In this document: positions 14,412 to 22,948 of the stretch, one piece after another
How positions within the stretch are numbered: the stretch's first letter is position 1
Layout: the number at the start of each line of letters is the position of its first letter
Source of the DNA: Rosistilla ulvae
Lineage (GTDB): Bacteria; Planctomycetota; Planctomycetia; Pirellulales; Pirellulaceae
NCBI RefSeq assembly: GCF_007741475.1
Contig: NZ_CP036261.1
Span: forward strand, 310,001-374,000
Direction: 5' to 3'
Length of the DNA stretch: 64,000 nt
Program-made: the position numbers and the translations under genes
Notes under the pieces: model-generated
The model's database searches: none
Told to the model about the DNA's origin: nothing
What the model saw: the letters and a program-made list of their open reading frames with translations, nothing else

Positions 14412-15156
14412 ATCCCTTGGGGCGCGACGCACAGCCCCCGCCACCCAACTGCTGCCACAATGCGCGATTCATCGTGGTGTGGAAAACAGGGCGAACATCT
14501 CCTGCGAAACGCCGAAACATATCACGGGTTGGCTACGCGACACTCGGGACGGTATCCGGAAACGGGGACACAGCTTTTTCGCGAGGTATCTGGACCTCAC
14601 CCGCGGGCGTACCACACCAAGGGACGCAGCATGTTTTCGGCATGTTTTCAGGGCGTTCTACCTTCGCCCTCCGGGAGGATTATTAACACACTCGCCCCCA
14701 TTCCTGCCGGCCTCGATTTCCCCCGAAAAGTTACTCTGTCCCCGTTTTTGAAAATCAAATTTGCTCAGGAACTTAACCTGACACCCCCGCCCCCGTCCTG
14801 GCAGAAAAAGACTAGTGCCGGCGCCGCCGTAGACGGATGCTCTCGCCACACTTCGCTTGCAATCTTTCCTGCTGCCCAACTACTCCTCTTCAAGACTTTG
14901 CTTCTAGTCACCAACTCGCAACACCGGGCGCATCACGACGTTCAGCAGCGCGACGCGTGCCATGCCGCGAATCGCTCTGACGCCCTCCAAACGCTTTACG
15001 CTATCCCACAAGCCCGTTGCGAAATGCTGCAGCAACGCAAACTGCGGGCTCGCGAACCGGGAGCCGGGTTTTGCTGATTGATTAGGCACGATGTCTGGGA
15101 GGCACCTGAGGGGCCGTCTTCGCGATTCCTAGCCGCCTCCATCCCTACCGCGCACG
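14412..15156. other. Intergenic repeat region
   Basis: About 750 bases of accessory DNA. REP cores lie at 14564-14580 and 14621-14640 (forward) and 14720-14744 (reverse, GAAAAGTTACTCTGTCCCC). The stretch 14745-15156 has only short frames of unrecognised sequence, including a 61-residue minus-strand frame at 14904-15089 that I cannot assign. Confidence 0.6.
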
Positions 15157-15190
15157 AAAAAAGCCCTGGCTTATTTTAAGCTAGGGCTAT
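15157..15190 (-). terminator. Displaced original terminator of tRNA-Val
   Basis: Read on the minus strand: AGCCCTAGCTTA, loop, TAAGCCAGGGCT followed by TTTTTT. It lies about 50 bases beyond the left attachment core, where the tRNA-Val 3' end would sit in an empty chromosome, so it is best explained as the ancestral tRNA terminator separated from its gene by the 7.7 kb insertion. Confidence 0.8.
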
Positions 15191-15238
15191 TATTTCGATT
15201 CGTAATTTTGGTGTCGCAGTGCGGGAACTGCTAATGAA

Positions 15239-15284
15239 AGTGGGCGATATTGGATTCGAACCAACGACCTCTACGATGTCAACG
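15239..15284. other. attL core (partial tRNA-Val 3' end)
   Basis: 46 bp identical to 22873-22918, starting AGTGGGCGATATTGGATTCG. It holds the acceptor 3' strand, T arm and part of the anticodon arm of tRNA-Val but lacks the 5' half, so it is not a functional tRNA. Confidence 0.95.
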
Positions 15285-15467
15285 CAAGAGCTTGCGGATG
15301 GAAACACTGCAAAACGCTGGGGAAATCACGGCAGCAAAAACGGTTGCCCCAACGGTTGCCCCAGCACCATCGATTTAGCCGATCTGGCGGCGGTGATGGG
15401 AAAGCAATTGAACACCGATGAACTCGGGGCGTTTGTCGCATCGCTGACAGCGGAGGTGGCACAATGA
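15285..15467 (+). CDS. attL-side open frame, detached integrase C-terminus candidate
   Basis: Sixty codons after the left core (QELADGNTAKRWGNHGSK onward, ending SLTAEVAQ) stay open in the same frame as the integrase codons that enter the right core. In an excised circle this segment would be fused to the integrase, making it 592 instead of 532 residues, and its stop would overlap the ATG of the next gene by four bases. In the integrated state the frame is open from about 15219 through the core, but I see no convincing start. The C-terminal part (DLADLAAVMGKQLNTDELGAF) looks helical. Confidence 0.55.
   Translation, partial: QELADGNTAKRWGNHGSKNGCPNGCPSTIDLADLAAVMGKQLNTDELGAFVASLTAEVAQ
15343..15364. 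repeat. Putative integrase arm-type site, left
   Basis: 22 bp with two direct copies of GTTGCCCCA at 12 bp spacing, 58 bp inside the left core. The same 22 bp recurs at 22736-22757 inside the right end. Arm-type integrase binding sites are the simplest reading; that is inference. Confidence 0.55.
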
Positions 15468-15988
15468 CAGAGCCGAAGCAATTAGCATCGTCAAACGTGA
15501 CGAGGGGCGACCGGCGGCGGGAATTGGCAGAGTCTGGCAGCCCGAGCGACGAAAATCAGTTGCAGGGCGATGATCGTTTGTTTCGAGCGTTGGTCTCGGG
15601 GTGCCATGTTGAAAATGCGGCGGTTGCTGCGGGTGTGTCCGAGCGGACAGCCTACCGGCGGTTGGCTGATCCTGAATTCCGGAGACAAATTGACGATGCG
15701 CGTCAATCGCTACGTGAATCCATCTTGGCGAAGTTGGCTGACGCAGGGCATGACGCTATCGGAGTGCTGATGGATTTGATGCACTCGGCAGAGGATGATC
15801 GAACGCGGTTGCTGGCCGCAAAATCGGTTCTTGATTCGTTGACGAAGTTTCAGCAAGACGAGAAACCGAAAGTCGACAGCAAGACGGACGCGGGGCAATC
15901 GCCATCGAGGCAAGTTGTGATTTACATTCCCGATAACGGTCGGGATCGCCATGACGGTTTGCCGGAGGCAAACACGAATATAGAATGA
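15464..15988 (+). CDS. HTH protein resembling phage small terminase subunit
   Basis: A 174-residue protein. Residues about 40-85 form a homeodomain-like helix-turn-helix (AVAAGVSERTAYRRLADPEF) followed by a helical stretch (LAAKSVLDSLTKF), the arrangement seen in small-terminase-like and related phage HTH proteins. A polar C-terminus ends VVIYIPDNGRD. If it is a TerS, it would redirect packaging of a helper phage, since no large terminase is present; it could instead be a regulator. ATG 15464 overlaps the stop of the preceding open frame (ATGA), which in the circular form belongs to the integrase. Confidence 0.65.
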   Translation: MTEPKQLASSNVTRGDRRRELAESGSPSDENQLQGDDRLFRALVSGCHVENAAVAAGVSERTAYRRLADPEFRRQIDDARQSLRESILAKLADAGHDAIGVLMDLMHSAEDDRTRLLAAKSVLDSLTKFQQDEKPKVDSKTDAGQSPSRQVVIYIPDNGRDRHDGLPEANTNIE

Positions 15989-16067
15989 GAGACCGCCGGG
16001 GTAATCTCCCGGCACGCTGGACGCGGCTGATTACCGCTTTCAAGAGGCTTGCGACTGATCCTCGCTT

Positions 16068-16112
16068 AGCACCCCGACCGGCAAGGGTTCCCTTTCCCTG
16101 CCCGTCGGGGTG
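16068..16112 (+). terminator. Strong hairpin, possible terminator
   Basis: ACCCCGACCGGCAAGGG pairs with CCCTGCCCGTCGGGGT around a short pyrimidine loop. It lies 80 bases after the TerS-like gene and just before the ribosome binding site of the next gene. No long T-run follows, so it may terminate weakly or act as an mRNA stabiliser. Confidence 0.6.
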
Positions 16113-16137
16113 GCTTCGTTTCACCAAAGGGAAAAGC

Positions 16138-17040
16138 ATGGAAGGAACCGACGGCAATCGTCGTGCACGATTCGTTTCAGTTACAGAACTTGCAGGTATT
16201 CAACAGGCTGCCATTTTTGATGCGGCAGAGAGGCGACGAAACGAGGCACCGAAGGAGTTGTTACGGTTGCTTCGTCGTCTAATCGACCGACTAAACGATA
16301 CTGCGATAGCTGATCAGCGATGGCAATCCAGCCAGGTCGATGCGTTGACCGAATTGATGATGCCGCTATGGAGGGAGCTCCGAATCGAGCAACCAGGGCT
16401 TTGGGTTGATCGAGGTAGCGACTATGGGCAAGCGACACCTTGCAAACTGTTCCATGTTCGCGACCCTGACCTTGAAGATTATCCCAGCACGATGTTGGAA
16501 CATGAGGAAGGCGAGAAGCGGTACGTCGCCACGGTTGGGGATGTTGCAATCATGCTGCCCGAAATTCTCACTTGGGAGAAATGGTTGGAACAAAAGTTTG
16601 ATCTAAAATCGATTCCGATAGCCCTGGGACGTTCGCTTAATGCGAGACCGATAGCAGAGAACGAAGCATTGGCAAACGCGAAATCGCGACCGAGAAAGGA
16701 CAGCAAGAAGAGGCCAGAAAGCACGGGGGACACGTTCGAGGCGTGGAAGGCATATCTTTTGGTGCATCACAAGTACGGCAGCGATTTGAATCAGACACCA
16801 GCGACACCGACCAGCATTCAAAATGCTGAGATTTGCTCAAAGGCACAGGCAAGCAGGCACTTCAAAACGAAGTGGGGCGGACACAAGCAGTACGTTCGGT
16901 ACTGCGCGGACATCAAGCGGCTAGGAGTCGAACTGAAATTGCTTGCGGGTGATATGTCAGTTGTGGGCATGGGATCGCTGATTCAAGAGTTGAAGGATTC
17001 AACCGCGCAAGACCCGCGGAATTGCATTGAGGACGATTGA
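16138..17040 (+). CDS. Unknown 300-residue protein of the integrated element
   Basis: I do not recognise this family. The N-terminal half (about 1-170) is helical with LRLLRRLIDRLND and WLEQKFDLKS; a basic linker (KSRPRKDSKKRPES) leads to a C-terminal domain (about 205-285, TFEAWKAYLLVHHKYG through HFKTKWGGHKQYVRYC) that could be a helical DNA-binding module. ATG 16138 is chosen because AAAGGGA precedes it; the longer frame to 15985 would run through the hairpin. A hairpin upstream and 190 bases of spacer downstream isolate it from the replication operon, as for cargo. No catalytic motif is evident. Confidence 0.7.
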   Translation: MEGTDGNRRARFVSVTELAGIQQAAIFDAAERRRNEAPKELLRLLRRLIDRLNDTAIADQRWQSSQVDALTELMMPLWRELRIEQPGLWVDRGSDYGQATPCKLFHVRDPDLEDYPSTMLEHEEGEKRYVATVGDVAIMLPEILTWEKWLEQKFDLKSIPIALGRSLNARPIAENEALANAKSRPRKDSKKRPESTGDTFEAWKAYLLVHHKYGSDLNQTPATPTSIQNAEICSKAQASRHFKTKWGGHKQYVRYCADIKRLGVELKLLAGDMSVVGMGSLIQELKDSTAQDPRNCIEDD

Positions 17041-17104
17041 TTCGTTGAAGGCCTGTTTCATCGTTTCATGGCTGCGGTGAAACGGTCAATAATTTCTTTT
17101 GACT

Positions 17105-17160
17105 GACAAGGCCCGTGAATCACGGGCAATTCGCGTCGTTTCGTCGTTTCACGACGATTG
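17105..17160. promoter_or_regulatory. Palindromes upstream of the AlpA-like gene
   Basis: GCCCGTGA and TCACGGGC form a near-perfect palindrome at 17111-17127, followed by CGTCGTTTCACGACG. They lie 70-120 bases before the regulator gene and are plausible operators or a terminator of the upstream gene. No protein can be assigned. Confidence 0.4.
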
Positions 17161-17229
17161 CCCATGAAACGGATTCACAAGAGCGTACCCGCCGACGGTT
17201 GCGGGATTCTTTGCTCTTGAGGATTTGTG

Positions 17230-17463
17230 ATGACAACGCAAATACCGCCGGACGCACCGGCGCGACTGTTGGACGTGGGCGGCGTGGCCGCTCTGCTGGG
17301 CGTTTCGGAACGTCATGTTTACAGGCTCGCCGACGCGGGCAAGATGCCGCGACCGATCAAGCTGGGCGGGGCGAATCGTTGGGACCGGCTGACGCTGGAA
17401 CAATGGGTCGATGACGGTTGCCCATCGATCGCTCGCACTCGCACGGGAGGGCCGCGACGATGA
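17230..17463 (+). CDS. AlpA-like helix-turn-helix regulator/excisionase
   Basis: A 77-residue MerR-type HTH protein of the AlpA/excisionase class. The motif LLDVGGVAALLGVSERHVYR is followed by LADAGKMPRPIKLGG and a wing ending RWDRLTLEQWVDDG. Members control integrase or excision in prophages, P4-like elements and PICIs. ATG 17230 has GAGG upstream. Its stop overlaps the next ATG (ATGA), so it heads the replication operon and is the likely switch gene of the element. Confidence 0.88.
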   Translation: MTTQIPPDAPARLLDVGGVAALLGVSERHVYRLADAGKMPRPIKLGGANRWDRLTLEQWVDDGCPSIARTRTGGPRR

Positions 17464-17930
17464 TCGATCGATCACACATCGCCGAAGGCGAGCGCCGACG
17501 CGACGAAGGCATGAACAGAGCGGCGGCGCGTCGCCCCGATCGGGTCACACTCGGGCGACTGGCAATGCTGCGAGCGTTGCTTGATTCGCCCAGCGGGACC
17601 GCTTCGCTTGACGACGCCACACCGCCAGATGAACTCGCCTCGCATTACGCGGACGGCGGCAAGTGGCGGGGACAGGTTATCCGGTCGCTGATCGCAGATG
17701 ACTTCGCCGAACACATCGGATACGTCAAGACGATCCGACCCGCCGGGCATCGTCGCCCGATTGCACTCTTGCGACTGATCGACCGGCAAGCGGCGGTGTT
17801 ACATCTATCCAGCATGACGGCGGCAATAGCCGTCTATGAGGCGACCCCGACGGCTGGCACCGTCGAGGCCGCAAATTCTGATACATCACAATCCACCGGC
17901 AACGGAGAATCGAGCAATGAATCTATCTGA
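17460..17930 (+). CDS. Hypothetical 156-residue protein of the replication operon
   Basis: No family recognised. The middle (about 25-110) is a predicted winged-helix-like region with LAMLRALLDS, a helix around WRGQVIRSLIADDFAEHIGY and a strand RRPIALLRLID; the tail is Ser/Thr/Asn-rich. ATG 17460 overlaps the AlpA-like stop and its own stop lies inside the DUF669 gene (17917), so translation is coupled on both sides. A DNA-binding accessory role is only inference from position. Confidence 0.7.
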   Translation: MIDRSHIAEGERRRDEGMNRAAARRPDRVTLGRLAMLRALLDSPSGTASLDDATPPDELASHYADGGKWRGQVIRSLIADDFAEHIGYVKTIRPAGHRRPIALLRLIDRQAAVLHLSSMTAAIAVYEATPTAGTVEAANSDTSQSTGNGESSNESI

Positions 17931-18417
17931 CATTTTAGCCGGATCGGGCGGCGGGGATATCCGCGACCTATGGGACAGCACCGAGGCGGCCGGCGAAATG
18001 GGGCCGTTGCCGCCGGGCGAATACATCGCCCATATCATCGCAGGGGAATTGGAAACTTCGCGGACGAATTCGACACCGGGTTACAAGCTGACGTTTTCGG
18101 TTATCGAGGGCGACTACATCGGGCGCAGGTTTTGGCTCGATTGTTGGCTGACACCAGCGGCGTTGCCACAAACGAAACGCGACGTTGCCAAGCTGGGCGT
18201 CAAGTCATTGGAGCAATTGGAACGACCGTTGCCCCGAGGGATTCGATGCAAGTGCAAGCTTGCACTCCGCAAGGATGACAATGGCGACGAACGCAACCGC
18301 GTTAAGTCGTTCGACGTTGTGGGCATCGATCCGCCGGAGGTTGACCCGTTCGCACCGGCGACGCCGAGCGATGACCAGACCGCGACATCGGAGGCAATGC
18401 AAAGTGACCTACTCTAG
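17917..18417 (+). CDS. DUF669 family protein
   Basis: A 166-residue protein of the phage-associated DUF669 family, recognised by LPPGEYIAHIIAGELE, then YKLTFSVIEGDYIGRRFWLDCWL and a C-terminal strand region (RCKCKLALRKDDNG, RVKSFDVVG). Family members occur beside phage primases, helicases and recombination genes and are suspected of single-stranded-DNA handling. The acidic tail ending MQSDLL is reminiscent of SSB tails. ATG 17917 has ACGGAGAA upstream. It overlaps both neighbours. Confidence 0.8.
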   Translation: MNLSDILAGSGGGDIRDLWDSTEAAGEMGPLPPGEYIAHIIAGELETSRTNSTPGYKLTFSVIEGDYIGRRFWLDCWLTPAALPQTKRDVAKLGVKSLEQLERPLPRGIRCKCKLALRKDDNGDERNRVKSFDVVGIDPPEVDPFAPATPSDDQTATSEAMQSDLL

Positions 18418-19381
18418 CATTGCGGATGCCTACGGGTTTCGCATTGTTGGACCATGCACGAACGAACGGCGGCTGATCGATTGGCCGTCGGCGTTCGTGG
18501 CGTATTCGCAATGCGACGACAGAGCCGAAGTAACTAAGGAATCGTATTTGTCAGCCTTCACGTTTGGCGATGCGTTTGCAGGCCACCTGAACGCGACGGG
18601 TTCAACTAAGGGCTACAGCGAAGAATGCGGGGCGGCTTGGGTGTGGTTTGACATCGACAACGACGACATCGACGCGGCGACCACCGACGCTAGAAAACTG
18701 GCGGCGGCGTTGGCCTACAGCTACGGCATTGCCGACGATGCGTTGCTGTGTTTCTTCTCAGGCAGCAAAGGATATCACATCGGCTTGCCGCTTGCGGCTT
18801 GTGGTTCACCTGGGCCGTCGGCGACGTTCCACAAAGTCTGCCGACGGTTGGCGGAGTCGATCGCCTTACAGATCGGAATCGTGATTGATACAGGCGTCTA
18901 TGATCGTGTTCGAGCGTTTCGGGCACCGAATAGTCGACACGGAAAAACGGGGTTATTCAAACGTTGGTTGTCGGTCGATTCGCTGTTGAACCTACAGGCG
19001 TCGCGAATCGTCGAACTTGCAAGGGAGCCGGAGCCGTTCGAGATTCCCGATGCACCGGGGCCGAGCCGGGCGGCGGTCGAAGAATGGGCGGCGGCGGTCG
19101 ATGCCGCCGAAGGCGAACTGTTAGCGTTGATAGAGCGGCGAGAAAGCGAGGTACCGTCGGGGCTGAACCGTGCGACGCTGGCGTTCATTCGTGACGGAGC
19201 TGCAACCGGCGATCGACACCGTTTGCTATTTTCGGCGGCGGCGAATCTTGCCGAGTTTCGTTGCTCGCTGGAGCTGGCAACGGCGTTGCTGCATGAACCG
19301 GCGTTGGACTCGGGATTATCGCCTTCGGAAGTGCGACGGCAAATTGAATGCGGCTTGAATCATCTGGGGGCGGCACAATGA
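18404..19381 (+). CDS. AEP-type DNA primase (PrimPol-like)
   Basis: A 325-residue archaeo-eukaryotic primase superfamily protein. Catalytic Asp83-x-Asp85 lies in VWFDIDND, the nucleotide-binding SGSKGYHIGLP is at 119-129, and the third acidic region IDTGVYDRVRAFRAPNSRHG follows at about 161-180. These are the three AEP signature motifs in order. The C-terminal 110 residues are helical. The GTG start at 18404 has GGAGG upstream and overlaps the DUF669 stop. With the adjacent DnaB-like ATPase it makes a self-sufficient replication module, as in satellites and integrative plasmids. Confidence 0.9.
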   Translation: MTYSSIADAYGFRIVGPCTNERRLIDWPSAFVAYSQCDDRAEVTKESYLSAFTFGDAFAGHLNATGSTKGYSEECGAAWVWFDIDNDDIDAATTDARKLAAALAYSYGIADDALLCFFSGSKGYHIGLPLAACGSPGPSATFHKVCRRLAESIALQIGIVIDTGVYDRVRAFRAPNSRHGKTGLFKRWLSVDSLLNLQASRIVELAREPEPFEIPDAPGPSRAAVEEWAAAVDAAEGELLALIERRESEVPSGLNRATLAFIRDGAATGDRHRLLFSAAANLAEFRCSLELATALLHEPALDSGLSPSEVRRQIECGLNHLGAAQ

Positions 19382-20316
19382 CGAACGCAAAATTTGTAAC
19401 CGCTTCGGATTCGCTGGATTCTTGGCGGGACGAGGTTTTGACCGGCAAGCCGCCGACGTTCTACAAAATTGCGGATTCGGGACCGTTGGCACGAATCGAG
19501 GTAGGGCCGAAGCTGATAACGTTGTTCGGCGGGGCACCTGGAAGCGGCAAGACGGCGTTTGTGATGCAATCGGTTGTCGATGCGTTGCGATTGAATCCGA
19601 CACTGCGGGCTGTTGTCTGCAATATCGAAATGCCGCCGGAAGTTTTGCTAGACCGGCAGCTATCGCGGTTGTCGGGCGTTCCGTTGAACTTCATCCGGTA
19701 TCGGACACTGAACGCGCATCACGCCGACAGGATTGACGTAGCGATGGGGACGATTGAGAGTGTCGCTGATCGGCTTTGCTTTGTTCGTCCACCGTTTGAC
19801 CTAGCGAACGCGGCGGCAGCGGCTACGGCCTTCACAGAGGGGCACAGCGGCGGCGTGTTGTTGGTGTTCGACTACATCCAACGAATTGCACCGCCGGGAG
19901 AACTCGGGGACAAACGCGGCAACGTCGATGCGACTATGAGCTTTCTGCGGATGTTCGCGGACGCGGGCGCGGCGGTGATTGTCGTGTCAGCGGTGGGTCG
20001 TCAGAAAGACAGCAAGGGACGTTCAAGCTATTCAGCTGATTCAATGAACCTTGCATCGTTCAAGGAATCGGGAGAACTCGAATTTGGTGCCGACGATGCG
20101 TTCATTCTCGCACCGTCGGCGGAGGAATCGGGTATCCGCGACTTGAAGCACTTGAAAGCACGGCATACCGAGCCGGTTGATATATCGCTTCGGTTTGAGG
20201 GGGCGATTCAAGCATTTGAAGCAATCGAGCCAGGTACCACCGACCCGCACGGCTTTTCGGCGGCGTTAAACGAACTTTGGGACCGAACCGACGGCGGGGG
20301 CGATTCATGGGATTAG
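19378..20316 (+). CDS. DnaB-like RecA-fold replicative helicase
   Basis: A 312-residue ATPase. Walker A GAPGSGKTA is at about 52-60, Walker B LLVFDYIQRI at about 160-170, with downstream VVSAVGRQKDSKGR and LKHLKARHTEP as in DnaB/RepA-type helicase C-domains. It lacks the DnaB N-terminal primase-binding domain, so it is shorter than chromosomal DnaB. ATG 19378 overlaps the primase stop (ATGA), and the next gene starts 10 bases before its end. Confidence 0.88.
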   Translation: MTNAKFVTASDSLDSWRDEVLTGKPPTFYKIADSGPLARIEVGPKLITLFGGAPGSGKTAFVMQSVVDALRLNPTLRAVVCNIEMPPEVLLDRQLSRLSGVPLNFIRYRTLNAHHADRIDVAMGTIESVADRLCFVRPPFDLANAAAAATAFTEGHSGGVLLVFDYIQRIAPPGELGDKRGNVDATMSFLRMFADAGAAVIVVSAVGRQKDSKGRSSYSADSMNLASFKESGELEFGADDAFILAPSAEESGIRDLKHLKARHTEPVDISLRFEGAIQAFEAIEPGTTDPHGFSAALNELWDRTDGGGDSWD

Positions 20317-20738
20317 ACAAGACCGCCGACGGGCGACCGATTCTAACAGGGGCAAGTCGATTGCCGCCGATGCAACCAACGCACGCACCGAAGGCGCAGC
20401 GGACAAGCACCGCCAAGACTGAGCCGAAGCGAAAGACGCGGGACCGTTTCGCTGTATTGAACTCGTTCGTCGATTGCACGATGCACAAACTGACGCGCCG
20501 CGAAATTGCGGTCTGGATGATTCTGTATCGAGACACCCGCAACGGCACCGCTCGCACGTCGCAGGGAAACATCGCACGGCGGGCGGGAATGTCGGTCAAG
20601 TCGGTGAAGATTGCGACGGGCAAGCTGATCGACGCGGGGTTGATTCGCGTCGTGTTCCAAGGCGGTTTGAATCGCGGGCCGTCACGTTTTCAAGTCGATC
20701 CACTGGGGAACCGTGGGTCCGTCACTGGGGAACCGTAG
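20307..20738 (+). CDS. Winged-helix protein, possible replication initiator
   Basis: A 143-residue protein with a disordered N-terminus (1-45) and a helix-turn-helix/winged-helix domain (KLTRREIAVWMILYRDTRNG, TSQGNIARRAGMSVKSVKIA, then LIDAGLIRVVFQGG). This arrangement is found in plasmid Rep and MarR-like proteins. Its last codons already contain the first iteron-like repeats (20703 and 20725), the usual rep-next-to-ori geometry, so it is the best candidate for the origin-binding protein. That role is inference. Confidence 0.75.
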   Translation: MGLDKTADGRPILTGASRLPPMQPTHAPKAQRTSTAKTEPKRKTRDRFAVLNSFVDCTMHKLTRREIAVWMILYRDTRNGTARTSQGNIARRAGMSVKSVKIATGKLIDAGLIRVVFQGGLNRGPSRFQVDPLGNRGSVTGEP

Positions 20739-20816
20739 TTCCCTAGTGCTGGGGAACTACAGGGGCCACCACTGGGGAACTGTAGTTCCTATTTCCCATA
20801 AGGGAACATAAGCGGC
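20701..20816. repeat. Iteron-like array, candidate origin
   Basis: Four copies of CTGGGGAAC start at 20703, 20725, 20749 and 20772, spaced 22-24 bp (about two helical turns). Two copies extend into small palindromes, GGGAACCGTAGTTCCC and GGAACTGTAGTTCC. A short A-rich stretch follows (CCCATAAGGGAACATAAG). The position after the helicase and winged-helix genes fits a replication origin. Confidence 0.65.
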
Positions 20817-20906
20817 AGTCCGCTTGATGGGCTGCGCCCGCGAACTGCCTTACAGAAAGTCAATCAGTCAGAACGCCGGTTGATCGTCAGCCTAGGAATC
20901 CGACCA

Positions 20907-21200
20907 ATGAACACCGACACACCGCCGAAACTACTCGCCCAATTGCAAGCGGCTTGGGGATCGGTGCCGACGCCCGTAACGACATTTGCGACCGAGGCGA
21001 GGCAAACGATGCCCGCGACAATCCAAAGGGCGGAGCGTTCCGATACGGCGCGGATAGCGTTAGAGCGACCGACCCCGATTTGCCGATCACACTTACCACC
21101 ATTTGAAGCGATAGAACAAACAACCCCGAAGCGACCCGGCTACATACGTTCGACGTGTTGCGTCTGCGGTCGGTTTTTGGGTTATCGCCCACACGAATAA
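20907..21200 (+). CDS. Small CxxC protein of unknown function
   Basis: A 97-residue hypothetical protein. Most is low-complexity and polar; the C-terminus RSTCCVCGRFLGYRPHE carries a Cys-x-x-Cys pair of the kind seen at the ends of phage replication-associated proteins. ATG 20907 follows CCA and lacks an obvious ribosome binding site. Its position between the putative origin and the integrase suggests a regulatory or accessory role, which cannot be tested from sequence. Confidence 0.5.
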   Translation: MNTDTPPKLLAQLQAAWGSVPTPVTTFATEARQTMPATIQRAERSDTARIALERPTPICRSHLPPFEAIEQTTPKRPGYIRSTCCVCGRFLGYRPHE

Positions 21201-21217
21201 ACACTTAGAATTACTGT

Positions 21218-21285
21218 TGCCAAGGCTAGGTGCGGATTAATTACCCGCACTGAATGCCGGACACCCGATCCGGCCCGCCTTGGCA
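21218..21285. promoter_or_regulatory. Three-way-junction fold upstream of integrase
   Basis: A 9 bp perfect outer stem (TGCCAAGGC 21218-21226 with GCCTTGGCA 21277-21285) encloses two hairpins: GTGCGG/CCGCAC (21230-21235, 21245-21250) and GCCGGA/TCCGGC (21256-21261, 21269-21274). It lies 38 bases before the integrase ATG and could be a structured leader, a single-strand origin or an operator cluster. Confidence 0.7.
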
Positions 21286-21322
21286 CTTCGTGCACTCGGG
21301 ACCAACGACGGGAGTTGATACG

Positions 21323-22921
21323 ATGGCTTCAATCAAACGAAAGACGGTAACGCGAAAGCTACCGACGCACGCAACGCTCAATGAACGCCGACGCAAGGCA
21401 ACCGCGAAAGAGCGCCGAGCAAGCCCCGATCAGACAACAATTCTTGAAACCGTCGCGACTTGGAAAGACAAGAGCGGCGACAAACAAACAGGCGTCGTCA
21501 TCGAAGGCGATAACGGTATTCGACGTGTTCGGACCCAATCGAAAACCTACTACGCCAAGTACCGCGACGGCAACGGGATCGTTCAAGAGATCGCGACGGG
21601 ATGCCGGGACAAACAGGCGGCAAAAACAAAGCTTGCCGAGTTGCTGAGCGTCGCTGATAAAGTTCGAGTCGGATCGCTAACCGAATCCGATGTTCAGGTG
21701 GGCCAGCACAACAAGCGACCGCTTGCCGATCACATTGCCGACTACATTGATGATCTGAAATCGCGGGGCGTTGCTTCGGATCGGATCAAGACCAGCGAAA
21801 CGCGATTTGCGGCGGCTTGCGATGGCTGCGGGTTTCGATGGCTGCGCGACTTAAACGCGGTCGCGCTTCGCAAGTGGTTGCGGAGTCAATCAGAAATGTC
21901 GGCGGCAACTTACAACTGGCATTCGGCGTTGTGGGTTGCGTTCGGTTGGTGGTTGACCGGCAGGCGATTGGACGGCAAACGCCCGATGCAAACCGGTGAA
22001 CGTCGGTTGGCATCGAATCCATTCGATGGTTTCGGCAAACGCGATGAAAAGAGCGACCGACGGAGGGTTGCGCGGGCGCTGACGTTGGACGAAATGCGGC
22101 GACTGCTCGACAACACTCAACGCAGGCCGCTAGATGATGCGTTGACCGTTCGACGCGGCAAGAACAAGGGGCAACGCATCGCTAAGGTTTCCGATGCACG
22201 ACGGGCGAAATTAGAGCGGTTGGGGATGGAACGAGCGTTGATCTACAAGTCGCTAATCTTAACGGGACTACGGTCAAACGAGCTGCGAACGCTTCGTAAG
22301 AACGAACTATCGTTTGGCGATGTTCCATTCGTGGTTCTGAACTCATGCAATGAGAAGAATCGCAAGGGTTCAACGATACCGCTTCGGTCGGACCTTGCCG
22401 CCGAGCTGCGCCAGTGGTGCCAGGACAAGCAACCCGGCGATTTGGTGTTCGACGTTCCAACTGGCTTGCTTCGGATTCTTAACCGTGACTTGGAAGCGGC
22501 CGGAATCGAGAAGATCGACGAAAGCGATGGGCGGGTTCACTTGCACGCAATGCGACACTCGACAGGCACCCATTTATCAGCGGCGGGCGTGTCGCCACGA
22601 ACCGCACAGGCAGTCATGCGTCATAGTCGGATCGAATTGACGATGAACACCTATACGGACGAACGCCTGTTGGAAACATCGGCAGCGGTTGAGCATTTGC
22701 CCGACCTCCCAATCACACCCGAAGCGAAATCTTGCGTTGCCCCAACGGTTGCCCCAGATGCGTACAAAACAGGGCAAGCTAGGTCAGGAACTGACAAGTT
22801 TGACGTTCGCAAGCGGAAGGGCCCAGGCAACGAAAAACCCCACAAAACATTGAATCTTGCGGGGTTTTTGAGAGTGGGCGATATTGGATTCGAACCAACG
22901 ACCTCTACGATGTCAACGTAG
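21323..22921 (+). CDS. int: Tyrosine recombinase (integrase) ending in the att core
   Basis: Site-specific recombinase of 532 residues. After an N-terminal AP2-like/arm-binding part (YYAKYRDGNG) and core-binding domain come the catalytic residues Arg317 (TGLRSNEL), His408-x-x-Arg411 (HAMRH), His434 and Tyr444 (NTYTDE). A long tail follows. The last 15 codons (VGDIGFEPTTSTMST) are read from the tRNA-derived core and the stop TAG is in the tRNA anticodon stem. ATG 21323 has GGGAG upstream. The gene lies against the right junction, as expected for the enzyme that inserted the element. Confidence 0.95.
   Translation: MASIKRKTVTRKLPTHATLNERRRKATAKERRASPDQTTILETVATWKDKSGDKQTGVVIEGDNGIRRVRTQSKTYYAKYRDGNGIVQEIATGCRDKQAAKTKLAELLSVADKVRVGSLTESDVQVGQHNKRPLADHIADYIDDLKSRGVASDRIKTSETRFAAACDGCGFRWLRDLNAVALRKWLRSQSEMSAATYNWHSALWVAFGWWLTGRRLDGKRPMQTGERRLASNPFDGFGKRDEKSDRRRVARALTLDEMRRLLDNTQRRPLDDALTVRRGKNKGQRIAKVSDARRAKLERLGMERALIYKSLILTGLRSNELRTLRKNELSFGDVPFVVLNSCNEKNRKGSTIPLRSDLAAELRQWCQDKQPGDLVFDVPTGLLRILNRDLEAAGIEKIDESDGRVHLHAMRHSTGTHLSAAGVSPRTAQAVMRHSRIELTMNTYTDERLLETSAAVEHLPDLPITPEAKSCVAPTVAPDAYKTGQARSGTDKFDVRKRKGPGNEKPHKTLNLAGFLRVGDIGFEPTTSTMST
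22736..22757. repeat. Putative integrase arm-type site, right
   Basis: The same 22 bp as 15343-15364 (two GTTGCCCCA direct repeats), here within the integrase tail and 115 bp before the right core. Matched repeats inside both ends fit P and P' arm sites. Confidence 0.55.
22833..22869 (-). terminator. Element-borne terminator for tRNA-Val, bidirectional
   Basis: AAAAACCCC and GGGGTTTTT form a perfect 9 bp stem with a 19-base loop. On the minus strand it ends in TTTTT six bases past the tRNA 3' end. It lies inside the integrase coding tail and could also act on rightward transcripts. Confidence 0.8.
22873..22918. other. attR core
   Basis: 46 bp identical to the left core; here it is part of the intact tRNA-Val gene. 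Confidence 0.95.
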
Positions 22922-22948
22922 CGCTCTAACCAACTGAGCTAATCGCCC
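22875..22948 (-). tRNA. tRNA-Val (GAC)
   Basis: Full cloverleaf on the minus strand: acceptor GGGCGAT/ATCGCCC, D arm GCTC..GAGC, anticodon stem CTACG/CGTAG with loop TTGACAT (anticodon GAC), T arm GTTGG-TTCGAAT-CCAAT, discriminator A at 22875. CCA is not encoded. It reads GUC. It serves as the insertion target of the element to its 3' side and remains complete after insertion. Confidence 0.95.

Follow-up and report, generated by a model that had tools for sequence, protein, structure and literature searches.

In the planctomycete Rosistilla ulvae, the integrase gene of a small mobile element appears to be encoded across the element's own attachment site, attP. The reading preferred here, at a probability of about 0.6, is that of a state-dependent integrase, which carries a C-terminal tail in the excised circle and is trimmed when the element is integrated, its most likely use being the control of recombination. 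The element covers positions 15285-22918 of the window, which is the whole 64,000-nucleotide stretch of DNA that was analysed, and its cores are 7634 bp apart. Its parts and the neighbouring chromosomal features are, in window coordinates:

15162..15188, no strand given, terminator-like hairpin of the chromosome, moved away from the tRNA by the insertion
15239..15284, no strand given, attL core of 46 nt, identical to the attR core
15285..15467, + strand, predicted circle-only C-terminal integrase tail, 60 codons plus TGA, in frame across the core
15464..15988, + strand, terminase-small-subunit-like HTH gene (phrog_2538, E 1.5e-6; Pfam match below the cut-off)
17227..17463, + strand, AlpA/HTH_17 protein, excisionase-like (domain and PHROGs matches)
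17836..18417, + strand, DUF669 protein, start uncertain
18311..19381, + strand, primase-like protein, start uncertain, one match below the cut-off
19348..20316, + strand, DnaB-like helicase
20307..20738, + strand, winged-HTH replication-initiation-like protein, start uncertain, one match below the cut-off
21323..22921, + strand, tyrosine integrase (int), integrated form of 532 aa, TAG at 22919-22921
22873..22918, no strand given, attR core, inside the tRNA gene
22874..22948, - strand, tRNA-Val(GAC), restored by the element

That the 7634-bp unit is an insertion is seen from the uninterrupted site present in both of the other congeners searched (G167 and G168), where the tRNA and right flank match and are joined directly to the equivalent of the left flank, a sequence 79-80% identical to window 15154-15284. 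The terminase-small-like gene lies towards the left end of the element and the integrase at its right end, and in make-up the whole resembles the PICI-like phage satellites. The gene set of that class is present, the likeness consisting of small size together with int and the AlpA-like, primase/helicase-like and terminase-small-like genes, with the TerS-like match found in PHROGs only. Scans of the window gave no excess of promoter-like sites (3, against 3.5 in shuffles) and, under a stricter rule, 13 terminator-like sites, hardly above the 10.3 of the shuffles. Repeats also lie within the element: three direct repeats of 21 nt (CCACTGGGGAACCGTGGGTCC-like) at window 20700-20789, where the replication-initiation-like gene ends, are possible origin iterons, and a 19-nt repeat, GACAGAGCCGAAGCAATTA (89%), occurs at 15466-15484, where the terminase-like gene begins, and at 18518-18536 in the primase region.

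The integrase matches PF00589 (E 5e-18), and R317, K345, H408, R411, H434 and Y444, all of them in columns without variation across 21 aligned integrases, are presumably its catalytic R-K-H-R-H-Y residues; the integrated form keeps every one of them, as well as the N-terminal region. The preliminary description had stated that the frame enters the tRNA-derived core and stops at a TAG belonging to the tRNA, which is the case (22919-22921, 532 aa), and recomputation returned the same numbers for its account of the joined circle. Were the right core joined to the left end, as we infer for the excised element, the integrase would gain 60 new codons and reach 592 aa, and its TGA, ending at 15467, would overlap the ATG at 15464 of the terminase-small-like gene (ATGA). 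A single opening of 60 codons is expected by composition with a P of about 0.08, so the window by itself says little and the decision was left to relatives.

At an E-value cut-off of 1e-20, 54 of 241 family genomes (the window's genome counted) had an integrase match. With the cut-off at 1e-30, the count was 81 of 397 class genomes, a set that includes the window's genome and repeats some family genomes, and alignment A2 at 1e-60 gave a match in 24 of 392 phylum genomes (the window's genome again counted). Forty places each from the family and class lists were taken by score and contig size, some of them sharing one genome, and the loci examined, window included, numbered 81. The integrase reading frame runs into an antisense tRNA in 58 of these. 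Both cores were found in 27 loci and no core pair in 54, for which contig ends, distant ends or loss may account. A left core was not found in 36 loci where int enters the tRNA, five of which were searched over more than 30 kb upstream; of those five, G155 (two loci) and G109 gave no tail-profile match, and only G006 was later resolved. Integrase relatives also occur at tRNA-Leu (L053, L057 and L062), the L053 integrase ending 19 nt before the tRNA. A circle form was sought in viral contigs: a first scan found no relative and a second found five loci (L132-L136), none with a tail in the stretch read. One of them, L132, a 40-kb IMG/VR record, has a related integrase at the record end that stops inside a tRNA-like core, no piece of which was found in the far 2,080 bases. 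Partial, distant integrase matches were present in 8 phage and 5 plasmid records.

The integrase frame enters the core in 24 of the 27 loci with two cores, and in all 24, window included, it stays open for 55-91 codons beyond. The remaining three (L111, L121 and L122) were set aside, as int there ends before the core and has no extension. As a control, the two alternative frames were followed past each of these cores, and just 3 of 48 reached 55 codons or more (Fisher p 4e-16, close relatives not being independent), and the integrase frame was the longest of the three in 23 of 24. The open frames in relatives are thus more than chance. They are found at several tRNA targets (Val, Pro, Ala, Gly, Asn and Arg among them), and among the 21 elements assigned the reading phase of the core is 0 in 11, 1 in 3 and 2 in 7. 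A quick integrase tree of 27 rows, with 7 of 24 inner branches poorly supported, implies at least 8 phase changes and at least 8 changes of tRNA isotype, and the open frame follows the integrase throughout the phase changes. That the frame is open in many elements, at several tRNA targets and while the phase changes argues that the circle form of int is selected. The earlier proposal that integration trims the integrase and that excision would restore the longer frame is borne out to this extent, and the broken or early-stopped frames that would have spoken against it were seen in none of the 24 elements whose integrase enters the core.

An undivided form of the gene is found at L054, where int, core and tail make up one 582-aa reading frame with no tRNA call and a tail-profile match at E 2.6e-4; this may be a tandem junction or an effect of assembly. 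In 7 of 9 left flanks examined by eye, a terminator and core remnants of another element stand in frame with the tail, and on this reading they are what tandem insertion would leave.

When each family-level tail was sought with a profile of the other 17, among 35,430 six-frame peptides, 14 of 18 were recovered at E <0.01, those not recovered being L066 (E 0.75), L076 (E 7), L042 (not listed) and the window's own. A family profile found none of the six class-level tails at a significant level (L116 E 5.8, L103 E 6.3, four not listed). With four family-level and six class-level tails unmatched, a common tail sequence is established for 14 of the 24, and the argument for the ten others is drawn from position, open frame and arm layout. 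The idea that relatives would share an extension like the window's QELADGNTAKRW tail therefore stands in part: the frame is open in every element and most family-level tails are alike, but the window's own tail, at E 0.94, is not significantly recognised by the rest, and profile A4 found no tail in the window's own genome.

The profiles also found tails outside their building set, at L075, L072, L092 and G006; L092 is a left end matched by the tail profile, with no integrase assigned to it. Matches were obtained in 8 of 11 genomes, and weak ones in G170 and G152 were, on reading, put down to chance or antisense. The G006 match is some 92 kb away from the integrase, on its upstream side. A 48-nt sequence identical to the core of that integrase precedes it, and with the frame kept this is the 25th in-frame case. 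The 24 elements measure 3.4-18.4 kb and that of G006 (L043 with L152) about 92 kb. At L150 (G190:C1), a left end was seen that has an in-frame tail and a core of 47 nt, the integrase with the matching right core being on another contig.

Both sides of the predicted junction carry a repeat that scores 22, against a shuffle maximum of 9:

15343..15364, + strand, left arm-type site GTTGCCCCAACGGTTGCCCCAG, predicted role
22736..22757, + strand, right arm-type site, the same 22 nt, inside int, predicted role

Paired repeats of this kind, one in the end of int and one in the tail, exceeded every shuffle in 23 of the 24 elements, L105 having no arm pair above the shuffles, and they are probably integrase arm sites. 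All 8 pairs compared across the full tail have a dN lower than dS (the pairs share sequences). With the comparison restricted to the part beyond the arm site, 5 of 6 pairs do so, and pooled differences by codon position are 82/63/127. A model of the L049 tail has two helices (mean pLDDT 77, pTM 0.47, from a 9-row alignment), and in a full-length model of L054, which matches tyrosine recombinases (e.g., Brujita Int, XerH and lambda Int), residues 449-525 are of low confidence and are followed by helices at 523-572 in a block with a pLDDT of about 52-73. For 14 tails compared with Pfam and PHROGs there was no convincing match, and the tail model had no fold match in the PDB.

Such a tail might be translated in the circle and yet have no specific role, being an old integrase C-terminus loosely kept open as attP lies in the gene. 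This would suit a tail that in most pairs changes more quickly than the remainder of int, that varies in length and ending from element to element, that in one pair (L052/L056) has a dN of 0.12 and a dS of 0.10 past the arm site, and that goes unrecognised by the others in 4 of 18 family-level cases. It is nevertheless an unlikely account of a register kept over at least 8 phase changes, of the low dN past the arm sites in the other five pairs and of the 14 tails recovered in leave-one-out searches, all of which sit more easily with a state-dependent integrase.

What happens to transcription at the core depends in part on one further feature:

22833..22869, no strand given, hairpin with a T-run inside int, just before the core, folding better in the tRNA direction

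In the window, this hairpin has -21.2 kcal/mol (z -5.5) in the tRNA direction and -13.8 kcal/mol (z -1.4) in the integrase direction, and it is absent from the list of the stricter terminator scan. By a simple rule, and as raw counts with the window included, a hairpin with a T-run precedes the core in 21 of 24 elements in the tRNA direction and in 14 of 24 in the integrase direction, while for the stretch before the tRNA the fold in the tRNA direction is the more stable one at 44 of 58 loci. The element thus likely supplies the tRNA with a new terminator, replacing the one that was displaced, and this would be milder in its effect on int. Since the window hairpin folds less well in the integrase direction, read-through into the tail would be possible; the hairpin could also stop the int mRNA ahead of the tail.

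These folds bear on a second explanation, that of a switch in which excision joins the transcription and translation of int to the left-end genes. The ATGA overlap with the terminase-like gene in the window suggests as much, as do the close starts in L110 and L116 and the weaker folding in the integrase direction at those 44 loci. Among next reading frames, which outside the window are mechanical and only predicted, one of at least 70 aa begins no more than 10 nt from the tail stop in three of the 24 elements (the window at -4, L110 at -8 and L116 at +2), with deeper overlaps in L042 (-26) and L066 (-49). The coupling to the next operon that had been proposed from the window is not borne out as a general rule, and with an integrase-direction hairpin and T-run in 14 elements, the window's among them, a switch of this kind is quite improbable.

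A third possibility is that the conservation belongs to the DNA, arm-type sites and attP geometry keeping the region similar and the open frame being incidental. The prevalence of the arm-type repeats, which are read in different frames in different elements, is what such an explanation would predict, but it is the integrase frame that stays open (24 of 24, with 3 of 48 in the control) and the excess of third-position differences continues past the arm sites, which makes it very unlikely. That the tail is a separate small protein with its own start, made in the integrated state, is scarcely credible. An in-frame start codon does occur in some left copies, within the core or near the beginning of the tail, but 10 of the 24 elements lack one over tail codons 1-20 and, among the tail starts, only that of L066 has a Shine-Dalgarno-like match.

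Counted in favour of the state-dependent integrase were the 24 open frames, the phase changes, the 14 of 18 tails, the independent finds, the arm pairs and the low dN; counted against it were the unmatched tails (the window's too), fast evolution, missing left cores, L105, the hairpin and the lack of a family or fold match. We infer the circle, the translation of the tail and its role from the sequences, and the mechanism would run as follows. With int encoded across attP, the excised circle would give an integrase with a short C-terminal piece, helical where modelled, and upon integration the same gene would stop inside the tRNA, yielding a shorter enzyme that keeps the N-terminal region and the catalytic residues. 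The gene would thereby report whether its own element is free or integrated. The tailed form may favour or stabilise the integrative complex, the trimmed form being less active or biased to excision, and integration would in this way be self-limiting. A bolder version, in which a widespread integrase family has a circle-only C-terminal domain that is removed by integration, sets the direction of recombination and replaces a separate regulator, is put forward tentatively, as less likely than not; if it were true, the tailed form would arise again wherever insertions in tandem share an internal junction.

The nearest precedent is the integrase of myxophage Mx8 (IntP), for which PMC6070905 describes an attP within the int coding sequence, a new 3' end upon integration and, reportedly, a change of specificity without inactivation. 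The deposited Mx8 Int contains the stretch RSTGLEP, read as tRNA-antisense, and then a tail. The likeness is that of an attP inside int and a C-terminus exchanged by integration, the circle here being predicted, and by this analogy the most probable task of the tail is to modulate activity or direction. The two proteins resemble each other weakly and in the catalytic region only (hhalign probability 5.6%, E 0.0068), and Mx8 is a 49.5-kb phage record as opposed to the 7.6-kb element here. In mycobacteriophage BPs, according to PMC4557955, attP lies inside a gene whose product becomes C-terminally shorter upon integration, and the integrase also has a C-terminal proteolysis signal. In that integration-dependent immunity, attP is in the repressor gene, and the repressor is trimmed and loses an ssrA-like tag, whereas here attP is in int, it is the integrase that is trimmed, and the tail endings vary, with no common LAA-like end among the 24 when read by eye. 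Archaeal SSV-type integrases have the recombination site within the integrase gene, which integration alters (PMC8371274). In their case the gene is broken into Int(N) and Int(C), while here all the catalytic residues stay with the integrated gene, and the separation of the catalytic domain from the N-terminal part that marks the suicidal type is not seen.

Mx8 and SSV are both named by Islander as integrases that extend across attP (PMC4383910), and attP-crossing integrases have so far been known from such particular cases. No description of planctomycete elements of this sort was found among the matches listed from the open-access literature, most subscription papers lying outside that search. 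With Mx8 as the precedent, the planctomycete case looks like a widespread bacterial variant. In practical terms, the tail profile helps to locate element ends, one of them about 92 kb from its integrase. The finding also puts a limit on the claim, made in a review, that only archaea have recombinases which disrupt their own gene, although the gene here is trimmed and not destroyed, and whether integration reprograms an integrase becomes directly testable in these planctomycete elements.
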